50,500 bases of DNA. Source: Gemmatimonadaceae bacterium. Its GTDB lineage: Bacteria > Gemmatimonadota > Gemmatimonadetes > Gemmatimonadales > Gemmatimonadaceae. The DNA lies in assembly GCA_020853635.1 (NCBI GenBank), contig JADYYN010000233.1:1-50500 (forward strand), written 5' to 3'. The notes below the pieces were generated by a model that was not told the DNA's origin, searched no databases, and saw only the letters and a program-made list of their open reading frames with translations. Made by a program: the position numbers and the translations under genes. Shown here one piece after another: positions 8,592-14,439 of the stretch (its first letter is position 1; every line of letters starts with the position of its first letter).

Positions 8592-8795
8592 GCTCCTGTG
8601 ACCCGCGACGCGAAAACGACGCCGGGGGCGGACCAGAGTGGAACGGCGGGGATTCCGGGCCCCGACGACTCACCGCAGATCGCGCCCCCGACTAAGGGCC
8701 GATGTGAGAGGGAAACTGGGAGAGGTGAGGTACCACGTCTCGACTTCCCGACTCACGCTGTTGTCTTGCGAACCGCGGTGGTCTGCGGTGGACGA

Positions 8796-9836
8796 CTACT
8801 CCTCGTTCTCTTCGGCGACGACCTGCTTGTTGACGCCGAGTACGACCTTCACCTTCTCTTCGATCTCGGCCATCACCGAGGGGTTGTCCTTGAGGAACAG
8901 CTTGGCGTTCTCGCGGCCCTGACCGATGCGCTGCGGTCCGTAGCTGTACCAGGCTCCCGACTTCTCGATGATCCCCGACTCCGCCCCGATGTCGACGAGG
9001 AGCGAGGTGTGCGAGATCCCTTCCGCGTACATGATGTCGAACTCGGCCTGCTTGAACGGCGGCGCGACCTTGTTCTTCACCACCTTCACCCGGACGTGCG
9101 AGCCGATCACGTCCTCCTTCTCCTTCACCGGGCCGATGCGGCGGATATCGAGCCGTAGCGACGCGTAGAACTTGAGTGCCTTACCGCCGGTGGTCGTCTC
9201 GGGGTTTCCGAACATCACCCCGATCTTCTCACGCAGCTGATTGATGAACACCACGGAACAGTTCGAGCGAGCGATGGCACCAGTCAGCTTGCGGAGCGCC
9301 TGGCTCATCAGACGGGCCTGCAGACCCACGTGCGAGTCTCCCATCTCTCCCTCGATCTCGGCCTTCGGCACCAGGGCCGCCACCGAGTCGATCACGATCA
9401 CATCCACCGCGCCGCTGCGGACCAGGATCTCACAGATCTCGAGGGCCTGCTCCCCGGTATCCGGCTGCGACACGAGCAACTTCTCAACATCAACGCCGAG
9501 CTTCTTGGCGTAGTCGGTATCCAACGCATGTTCGGCGTCGATGAAGGCCGCCGTCCCACCCTGCTTCTGCGCATTCGCCACGACGTGCAAGCAGACCGTG
9601 GTCTTACCGCTGGACTCGGGGCCGTAGATCTCGGTGATGCGACCCCGCGGGATCCCACCGACTCCGATCGCGGCGTCGAGATTGATGGCCCCAGTCGGGA
9701 TCGCATCGATCTTCACCCGCATCCCTTCAGCGCCGAGCTTCATGATGGCGCCTTTGCCGAACGACTTCTCGATCTGCGAGACCGCGAGACCCAACGCCTT
9801 CGTACGATCCGCCTGCTGTGCAGCCGTGGTGGCCAT
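8796..9836 (-). CDS. recA: Recombinase RecA
   Basis: ATP-dependent strand-exchange recombinase and co-protease of the SOS response. The 346-aa product starts at [15 protein letters not shown]; upstream in-frame codons are non-conserved promoter sequence. Visible features: Walker A GPESSGKT (72-79), EHALD, the L1/L2 DNA-binding loop regions with MSQALRKLT and [17 protein letters not shown], and an acidic C-terminus ending ENEE. Length is typical. Upstream, between this gene and yraN, is an SOS-box-like site at 9958-9972, so DNA-damage induction is likely. recX follows on the same strand. Confidence 0.98.
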
Positions 9837-9957
9837 CGTTGCCTCAGTGGTCCTGCCTGTAGGGCCGGTGGTGCCGGCTCGTGAAGGGAATCTAGCCCCT
9901 CGGAGGGTGGGGGCTATCCCGAACGAACTGCGAAAATCCTGTGTGCTTCTGGATACC

Positions 9958-9972
9958 GAACAAACTACGAAC
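9958..9972. promoter_or_regulatory. Candidate LexA (SOS) box of recA, GAAC-N7-GAAC
   Basis: GAAC (9958-9961), 7 nt, GAAC (9969-9972); in the recA sense this reads GTTC-N7-GTTC, the direct-repeat form of LexA operator established for alphaproteobacteria. It sits about 120-135 bp upstream of the recA start, where the promoter is expected. A further GAACGAAC lies nearby at 9921-9928. No lexA gene is in the window, so the cognate repressor specificity is unknown. Confidence 0.5.
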
Positions 9973-10040
9973 TGTGAGCGATCCCGCAAGGTCCGGCATG
10001 GGGCGGTTCCTCGGGAGCCGTACCGTATCCCGTCCAGTCA

Positions 10041-10183
10041 CATTCATTGTTTTCTACATTCACTGTAACTCAATTAACAACAACAGCTTACCGTGTTGAC
10101 TGCCTGTGGAATGCGTGTTGATCACGTGTGGACTCCCGTGAGTTATCCACAGGCCGTCCACGCCGCCCCAGGGGTTATCCACA
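10041..10183. other. Origin-like block: AT-rich tract plus DnaA boxes
   Basis: Positions 10041-10090 are 70% A+T, in sharp contrast to the GC-rich surroundings. They are followed by TGTGGA at 10105-10110 and 10127-10132 (inverted TCCACA cores, 22 bp apart) and two perfect DnaA boxes TTATCCACA at 10143-10151 and 10175-10183 (32 bp apart). Spacings of about two and three helical turns place the boxes on one DNA face. The layout (AT-rich unwinding-type tract next to clustered boxes) is that of a bacterial oriC, but dnaA, dnaN, gidA or parAB are absent from the window. It may instead be a DnaA-controlled regulatory region of recA or yraN. The 349-bp gap between these two genes contains only this block and the SOS-like site. 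Confidence 0.5.
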
Positions 10184-10185
10184 CG

Positions 10186-10596
10186 TCAGGCGACCCGAAA
10201 CGCGTCCTCCACGTGCTTCACCAGCACCCGCTCCCCCGCGATCAACACCCCGACGACATCGAATCGATACGATTCTTCCGCGCGCCCGTGACGGTCGATC
10301 CACACGCGCGCGCTCCGCGCGAGTTCGCGTTGCTTGCGATAGTGCACGGCTTCGACGGGATCACCGAACCGTGCACCGCTGCGTGCTTTCACTTCGACGA
10401 ACGCGACGAGTGCATCGCGACGCACGACGAGATCGATATCGCGGTGTCCGTTGCGGAAGCGACGGTACACGACGCGCCAGCCTTTGCGCGTGAGCCATCG
10501 CTCTGCGATCCGTTCTCCGAGTTCGCCGACACGCTGATTGTGTTGGGTCACGCGACGAACGTACGCGACGCGCGTCTGCGGGCGTGATCGGCTCAT
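10186..10596 (-). CDS. YraN / UPF0102 family nuclease-like protein
   Basis: 136-aa protein of the UPF0102 (YraN) family, which has a restriction-endonuclease-like fold and a possible role in DNA processing or uptake. Motifs: GELGERIAERWL (24-35), GHRDIDLVV (50-58) and the active-site-like FVEVKAR (66-72), followed by the family-typical FGDPVEAVHYRK. The usual Glu-Ile-Asp of the GEIDLI motif is here Asp-Ile-Asp. I choose ATG 10596; more upstream codons remain open but lie in the repeat at 10631-10994. A GTG at Val16 is an alternative start. The gene ends 3 bp from a perfect DnaA box. Confidence 0.85.
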   Translation of the reverse strand: MSRSRPQTRVAYVRRVTQHNQRVGELGERIAERWLTRKGWRVVYRRFRNGHRDIDLVVRRDALVAFVEVKARSGARFGDPVEAVHYRKQRELARSARVWIDRHGRAEESYRFDVVGVLIAGERVLVKHVEDAFRVA

Positions 10597-10630
10597 CGCT
10601 AACCGGCGCTGAACTTTGCTCCGCGCCGGA

Positions 10631-10994
10631 ACCGCGTGTGCGTTGCCCCGCTCGGAGCCGCGGGCCCCGCGTCGCGCGCCTATGCGCTTACACGCGGCGA
10701 GCCCCGCGCTGCGCGCGGGTCTCTTGCTACGCGCAGCGGCGCGCGCTTGCGGGGCTCGCGGCTCCTCGCTGGATCGGCGCGTGGGACGGCGCGTGGGACG
10801 GCGCGTGGGACGGCGCGTGGATCTGCGCGGTCGCGCGCTCGCACGCGCTCCCCAGCCAGAGCGGGAGGCCCGCGACGCGCGACCGCAGCACGCCCTCGCG
10901 CGTAGCAAGAGACCGCCGCGCCGTTGCGGCGGGCTCGCAGCGTTCACGCGCGTGGGCGGGCCAGGGCGCGCGACGCGGGCCGACCGCCGCGCGC
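10631..10994. repeat. 364-bp direct repeat, copy 1 (left of padR-ADOP)
   Basis: This block recurs at 14076-14439 with a constant offset of 3445 bp, no indels and, by my count, about 22 mismatches (roughly 94% identity). The last ~130 bp differ at only one position. It contains paired inverted segments: GAGCCGCGGGCCCCGC (10655-10670) with 10749-10764 (one mismatch), and GGTCTCTTGCTACGCGC (10718-10734) with 10898-10914 (perfect), so strong folding is expected. It fills most of the 495-bp gap between yraN and padR. Open frames through it are GC-driven and show no protein family. Confidence 0.9.
10776..10819. repeat. 12-bp tandem repeat inside repeat copy 1
   Basis: Unit GGCGCGTGGGAC, 3.7 nearly perfect copies. 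The same place in copy 2 (14221-14264) holds four decayed 12-bp units, and many of the differences between the two copies fall in or next to this tract. Confidence 0.85.
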
Positions 10995-14063: not shown

Positions 14064-14075
14064 CGGCGCTGCGGC

Positions 14076-14439
14076 ACCGCGTGTGCGTCGCACCGCTCGG
14101 AGCCGCGGGCCCCGCTTCGCGCGCCTATGCGCTTACACGCGGCGAGCCCCGCGCTACGCGCGGGTCTCTTGCTACGCGCAGCGGCGCGCTCACGCGGGGC
14201 TCGCGGCTCCTTGCTGGATCGGCGCGTGTGACGGCGAGTGGGAAGGCGCGTGGCATGGCGAGTCGATCAGCGTGGTCTCGCGCTCGCACGCGCACCCGAG
14301 CCCGAGCGGGAGGCCCGCGACGCGCGACCGCAGCACGCCCTCGCGCGTAGCAAGAGACCGCCGCGCCGTTGCGGCGGGCTCGCAGCGTTCACGCGCGTGG
14401 GCGGGCTAGGGCGCGCGACGCGGGCCGACCGCCGCGCGC
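14076..14439. repeat. 364-bp direct repeat, copy 2 (right of padR-ADOP)
   Basis: Second copy of the block at 10631-10994, beginning 12 bp after the permease stop and ending 4 bp before the ftsK stop codon on the opposite strand. The inverted arms are preserved (14100-14115 with 14194-14209; 14163-14179 with 14343-14359), so the folding potential is maintained. It fills the whole 380-bp gap between the two convergent genes and could act as a two-way transcription barrier. Confidence 0.9.

Follow-up and report, generated by a model that had tools for sequence, protein, structure and literature searches.

A predicted DnaA-assembly array upstream of recA in one clade of the Gemmatimonadaceae

What does a cluster of DnaA boxes do between recA and yraN? 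In the window analysed here, a stretch of 50,500 nucleotides from a Gemmatimonadaceae bacterium (GCA_020853635.1, contig JADYYN010000233.1), two perfect boxes, a series of weak ones and an A+T-rich tract lie upstream of recA in an arrangement that recalls oriC. A preliminary description of this DNA offered three readings, namely the chromosomal origin, a site that titrates DnaA and DnaA control of recA. The first finds no support in the comparison with relatives. DnaA control of recA is favoured, since in one clade the element goes with recA and since the array stands upstream of LexA-type sites, a combination with a precedent at E. coli uvrB; titration takes second place.

Layout of the yraN-recA gap

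The source genome (G000 in the labels used here, where G, L and C numbers denote genomes, loci and contigs) is an assembly of 4.17 Mb in 295 contigs, 84% complete. In the window recA occupies 8796..9836 on the minus strand (TIGR02012, 562 bits) and yraN 10186..10587 on the same strand (TIGR00252 above its cut-off; its end is sure and its start not fixed). The gap of 9837-10185, from the recA start at 9836 to the yraN stop at 10186, is where the preliminary description had placed the cluster. Two perfect TTATCCACA boxes are found on the plus strand at 10143..10151 (R2 of the array in the recA sense) and at 10175..10183, adjoining the yraN stop. A degenerate core, TCCACG, lies at 10157..10162 on the same strand, 11 bp from the core at 10146 of the first box. 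Four weak units follow on the minus strand: F1 with the core TCCACA (10127..10132; TGTGGA on the plus strand), F2 with TCAACA (10116..10121; TGTTGA), F3 with TCCACA (10105..10110; TGTGGA) and F4 with TCAACA (10094..10099; TGTTGA). The perfect boxes and the two TGTGGA cores had been recognized before, and the TGTTGA units at 10094 and 10116 complete a four-unit series, 10094, 10105, 10116 and 10127, in exact 11-bp steps. The tract of 70% A+T over 50 bp, also described earlier, is located at 10036..10085, 3′ of the F units and towards recA. No other 50 bp of the gap are richer in A+T, and the surrounding window is 65-72% G+C.

Read in the recA sense, the yraN stop is followed by a TGTGGATAA box, a degenerate CGTGGA, a second TGTGGATAA box and, 19 bp further from core to core, by TCCACA, TCAACA, TCCACA and TCAACA in 11-bp steps, the A+T-rich tract, GTTC-N7-GTTC, a TTCG element and recA. 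The strong boxes (R) and the helically phased weak boxes (F) point apart, with the A+T-rich tract beyond the F array, and roughly 260-350 bp separate the array from the start codon of recA. A G+C-rich repeat is present in two copies, 93% alike, at 10610-10960 and 14072-14405 of the window, and shorter pieces of it occur on contigs C70, C134, C210 and C239 among the 18 matches listed.

Between the array and recA there are two LexA-type sites on the minus strand. GTTC-N7-GTTC at 9958..9972 has the TTCG-N7-TTCGG form seen at lexA loci, and a second TTCG...TTCGG-type element lies closer to recA at 9919..9934; the gap comparison behind this second element took only the last 340 bp from G070 and did not include G049. 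The TTCG-N7-TTCGG form occurs twice at the best lexA locus of nine of nine genomes (L168-L176). This common form makes the recA-gap elements putative LexA sites, of a TTCG/GTTC type which we take to resemble the alphaproteobacterial LexA box. The gap thus presents DnaA boxes together with LexA-type sites upstream of an SOS gene, as expected of a co-regulated promoter of the uvrB type. A simple scan of window 9800-10250 found no sigma-70-type promoter or terminator, and a search of window 8700-10700 returned no Rfam match at E<=1. The genome's own DnaA carries the Pfam DNA-binding and ATPase domains. Two more matches to the DnaA-type ATPase domain lie side by side in 642-residue open frames at L017 (G000:C264:43740-45284).

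How unusual the cluster is depends on what is counted. With one mismatch allowed three boxes are counted in the window where 1.74 would be expected, 19 shuffles in 100 contain as many, and by that count the window is not enriched in DnaA boxes. The perfect TTATCCACA, on the other hand, occurs only seven times in the whole assembly; for seven boxes placed randomly along 4.17 Mb, about 0.0005 pairs no more than 50 bp apart are expected. Allowing two mismatches at most, the pattern TCMACA-N5-TCMACA-N5-TCMACA is matched at two overlapping places in the assembly, both in the recA-gap series and both free of mismatches, and three such units spaced at 11 bp without mismatch exist nowhere else in it. 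Ten other genomes have zero to two matches each, all with two mismatches, and the pattern read backwards gives a single match in 11 genomes (G022). The 11-bp core steps also make the units tandem double DnaA boxes, 2-3 bp apart, with an unexceptional score on a generic position weight matrix: the recA site scores 16.2 against shuffle maxima of up to 19.3 and is not singled out. It ranks third in the 127,331 bases of its own genome that were scanned, with two other places scoring higher; of the 15 top scores listed for G110, none comes from the recA gap.

The origin question and other DnaA-box regions

The claim that the site has the anatomy of oriC holds in part. The box cluster, the tract of 70% A+T over 50 bp beside it and the polarity of the outer boxes are all present; a skew minimum and a conserved trio-like run are not. 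The source genome is in 295 pieces and skew was judged in two complete relatives. In G110, a member of the same genus, the skew sum is lowest in the first stretch, at dnaA, and highest after the 1.55-Mb stretch; 42 stretches were sampled (835,783 bases, 26% of the chromosome), and the sum ends at +0.16 rather than zero. recA is located at 1.950 Mb and the boxes of the dprA-hemW region at 1.894 Mb, and the nine stretches from 1.63 to 2.20 Mb are all negative, with no turn at recA. Twenty sampled stretches of G022 place the minimum at dnaA and the maximum at 1.86 Mb. A skew minimum elsewhere was what the preliminary description had named as evidence against an origin, and in both relatives it falls at dnaA. 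Cumulative skew within the window dips near 10-12 kb and equally deep near 29-31 kb, and so says nothing.

The recA site belongs to the terminus half of the chromosome in the relatives. dif-like sites are found at 1,930,289 in G022, 2,121,493 in G048, 1,421,889 in G098 and 1,479,038 in G070, about 306, 247, 268 and 335 kb from recA, respectively. The search used a dif consensus and is only partly telling; it gave a match in six of ten genomes and none in G000, G110, G023 and G099. The dif-like word TACGTATAATATGTATTATGTAAA, or a form one mismatch off, occurs in the source genus and a related one (G134:C50:42221, G045:C12:110853 and G070:C1:1479038).

A cluster at dnaA, which the preliminary description had proposed looking for, is indeed there. 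Read by eye and unscored, the dnaA-dnaN gap has boxes and DnaA-trio-like runs in five of five genomes: imperfect ATCCACA boxes followed by CTACTACT-like runs in the source genome, G110, G070 and G023, and TTTCCACG followed by a CTACTACT-like run in G045. Such a box-plus-trio plan is reported for most bacterial origins (PMC8287927). At the recA gap five NTN triplets in a row follow the array in the source genome (P 0.02), but nine other gaps of the genus have three at most (three in G099 and G134, one or two in seven others) and G049 is unscorable; no conserved series of at least three NAN triplets within 16 bp of a box was found.

Boxes, a phased array and an A+T-rich tract are what a main chromosomal origin at recA would display. 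The sampled skew sum that is lowest at dnaA in G110 and G022, the dif-like sites 0.25-0.34 Mb from recA in four genomes, the boxes with trio-like runs in the genome's own dnaA-dnaN gap and the lack of a turn at recA speak against it and leave it a very small probability. As far as sequence can tell, the recA-gap site is not the skew-defined origin. A secondary DnaA-dependent origin, in which the array would open the A+T-rich tract and load helicase, perhaps only under stress, fares little better. The outer boxes point apart with the A+T-rich tract beyond, as in E. coli oriC, the five-triplet run follows the array in the source genome, and a DnaA-dependent alternative origin has been described in E. 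coli rnhAB mutants after UV (PMC12000880). The skew has no turn at recA, however, the tract in relatives is modest at 58-70% A+T, and the reading is considered very unlikely because the triplet run is not conserved. About equally slim is the chance that such an origin rests while growth is undisturbed and is called on when forks fail, its place beside recA letting recombination and re-initiation be switched together; if so, its rare firing would leave no mark in the GC skew.

Two further box-bearing regions were seen in the source genome. The dprA-hemW gap and the start of hemW (L009:7068-7980, G000:C83) hold five TTWTCCACA boxes around an A+T-rich tract that carries a 25-bp palindrome, GAGAAWNNACTTTAAGTNNTTCTCA. 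With up to three mismatches the palindrome occurs once in each of 11 of 12 genomes (it is absent from G150 and doubtful in G019) and not at all in the control; for seven genomes its place was read as the dprA-hemW gap, 27-55 kb from recA. This region may be a second DnaA site. Between a bactofilin gene, downstream of parB, and a gene for a BMP-type lipoprotein (L010:6353-6474, G000:C159) there is a further A+T-rich gap with TTATCCACA boxes, and boxes at this place recur in G110, G070 and G023, about 19 kb from dnaA.

Conservation of the long gap and its array

Of 73 genomes of the family, 43 have a yraN-recA gap of 60-184 bp and the other 30 one of 200 bp or more. Near-identical genomes (G145 and G045, G066 and G084) are counted separately, and L038, where yraN was not found and the last 284 bp were used as the gap, is placed among the 30 by assumption. 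TTATCCACA with at most one mismatch occurs in 24 of the 30 long gaps, always on the same strand, and ranks at the top of its 1680 anagrams (mean 1.3). The other six long gaps, with no box at that threshold, are those of G110, G132, G066, G084, G120 and G004. The commonest 9-mer of any kind is again a DnaA-box variant, TTTTCCACA with its reverse complement, in 18 of 23 long gaps, a count that leaves out the genomes labelled g13 and the 150 bp nearest recA. The g13 genomes conserve the word TTATCAACA and not the perfect box. Seven of the 43 short gaps have a box inside the gap, six of them in the genus of G022, and short-gap G143 has a match at the end of yraN, boxes up to 30 bp inside yraN being listed as well. 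The short recA gap in the genus of G022 keeps TTGTCCACA near the yraN stop in six of six genomes (L078, L105, L106, L130, L135 and L136).

The phasing is more narrowly distributed. The 11-bp core step occurs 13 times in ten gaps of the source genus, against a mean of 0.15 and a maximum of 2 in 200 shuffles; adding an eleventh genome brings the count to 15, spread over seven genomes, and the best non-shifted anagram reaches 2. A template built from the source genome alone, R2-19-F1-11-F2-11-F3, fits eight of ten genus-mates (G023, G070, G087, G099, G110, G122, G134 and G150; P<=0.035). G049 and G128 do not match it, nor does any of 18 long-gap genomes from other genera (lowest P 0.06). These P values, like those for the triplet runs, come from 200-500 shuffles, 0.0000 meaning that no shuffle reached the value. 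The array of G110 is weak (P 0.025) and is found in a gap that has no box within one mismatch. In nine placed genomes the cores are more alike than the spacers in 36 of 36 pairs (0.66 versus 0.37), a difference inflated by the choice of placements on the cores. Judged from these sequences, the box is a trait of the clade and the phased array one of the genus. Lack of conservation of the boxes in relatives, which the preliminary description had held would count against its reading, is not what is observed: they recur in most long gaps, and their template in most genus-mates.

The long gap itself follows the RecA phylogeny. In a tree of 59 rows, 27 long-gap rows and one short-gap row (G143) form a group of 28 with support of 100/98, so that two changes in gap length are needed, for example one gain and one loss. 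Rows had at least 250 residues; 40 loci of 801 bp were left out, including G018, G004, G087, G139 and the short-gap genomes fetched at that length. G139 is a second member of the source genus with a short gap alongside G143, and the long gap has been lost in both. The long gaps of G018 and G004 stand outside the tree, and G079, the other genome examined from the genus of G004, has a short gap. In 28 further named records, other than genus members already seen, the gaps measure 90-176 bp. On this evidence the lengthening is confined to one clade, and in the gaps examined it is always at recA. Since most of the family has the gap without the element, the insert is probably an addition upstream of a basic recA promoter region. 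Genera without the array keep a gap of 60-184 bp, so the array would not be needed for basic recA expression.

A possible DnaA input to recA and its precedents

From layout, conservation and location, which are read directly from the DNA, we infer binding, spreading and an effect on recA as follows. The strong boxes would hold DnaA, and at high DnaA-ATP the protein would spread along the weak 11-bp units towards recA, altering access to its promoter. recA would in this way gain, besides LexA, a second input that reports on the replication cycle, like DnaA and LexA at uvrB. The uvrB precedent would make repression the likelier sign of such control. That this predicted DnaA-assembly array is joined to the recA promoter region and tunes recA in one clade of the Gemmatimonadaceae is given about an even chance. 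It is favoured by the 11-bp phasing, the top rank of the box word, the fit of the template, the clade-bound gap, the LexA-type sites, the domains of the genome's own DnaA and the uvrB, recN and dinJ precedents. Against it stand the misfits G110, G049 and G128, the loss of the long gap in G143 and G139, the absence of the array outside the genus, the unexceptional matrix score and the scan that found no sigma-70-type promoter.

The main rival is a site that acts on DnaA itself, through titration, datA-like hydrolysis or DARS-like reactivation, so that its place beside recA would be historical. It owes this rank to perfect boxes that are few and concentrated at four regions: in a count of TTWTCCACA in three assigned genomes, five of six in G110, six of seven in G070 and six of eight in G023 lie at the dnaA promoter, parB-bactofilin-lipoprotein, dprA-hemW and recA, some of them inside coding sequence. 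E. coli control sites likewise keep their chromosomal place (PMC4585315). A site with two strong boxes in the terminus half would probably be a poor early titrator, however, the element keeps a single orientation towards recA, and the boxes point apart where those of both E. coli DARS face each other 11 bp apart; the reading is rather unlikely. Unlikelier again is a motif that binds another protein, or a functionless remnant of common descent. The word conserved in the g13 genomes is not the perfect box, and related genomes share history; yet among 1680 anagrams the top-ranking one is precisely the DnaA box, and cores exceed spacers in likeness in every pair. This reading keeps some weight because that likeness is inflated by the choice of placement. 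If DnaA does set RecA levels in this clade, initiation of replication would be tied directly to how much of the main recombinase is available. With DnaA sites arranged much as in oriC, conserved within a genus and distant from the origin, the array also lends itself to asking how an origin differs from a site where DnaA only assembles. The open-licence literature in PubMed Central yielded no report of a DnaA array at recA.

Among known systems, the DnaA of E. coli binds preferentially to paired boxes separated by 2-3 bp, which 15 of its 16 bound regions contain, and accepts a 9+2 bp spacing in vivo; recA is absent from the 16 regions listed (PMC11317965). The recA gap shares the tandem 9-mers 2 bp apart with these double boxes and differs in having three successive pairs with weak members. 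The boxes of the unwinding module termed BUS are also followed by an A+T-rich tract on the 3′ side (PMC8287927), but here a trio-like run occurs in the source genome alone and the better module is at the dnaA-dnaN gap. E. coli oriC has two perfect boxes in diverging orientation, one of them flanked on its outer side by the 50 bp richest in A+T. The recA element resembles it in this respect, but is not at a skew minimum in the relatives sampled, is half as large, lacks a conserved run of trio-like sequence and has recA as its neighbour. DARS1 and DARS2 of E. coli have two facing boxes with cores 11 bp apart and then a tandem box at 12 bp. The recA-gap boxes point apart at 19 bp and no such set of three was found, so that a DARS geometry is rejected for its opposite polarity. 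A few repair genes of E. coli are known targets of DnaA. uvrB is an SOS gene repressed by both DnaA and LexA, with boxes that include DARS1, and recN and dinJ are further cases (PMC6015884). At uvrB, as at the locus described here, an SOS gene is preceded by DnaA boxes and by LexA or LexA-type sites, and uvrB/DARS1 also has three boxes with core steps of 11-12 bp. The differences are that the gene is recA, that the boxes point apart instead of facing, that four weak tandem units are present and that the LexA-type sites do not overlap the boxes. By analogy, E. coli uvrB appears to be the nearest functional precedent for an array whose polarity is that of oriC and not that of DARS.
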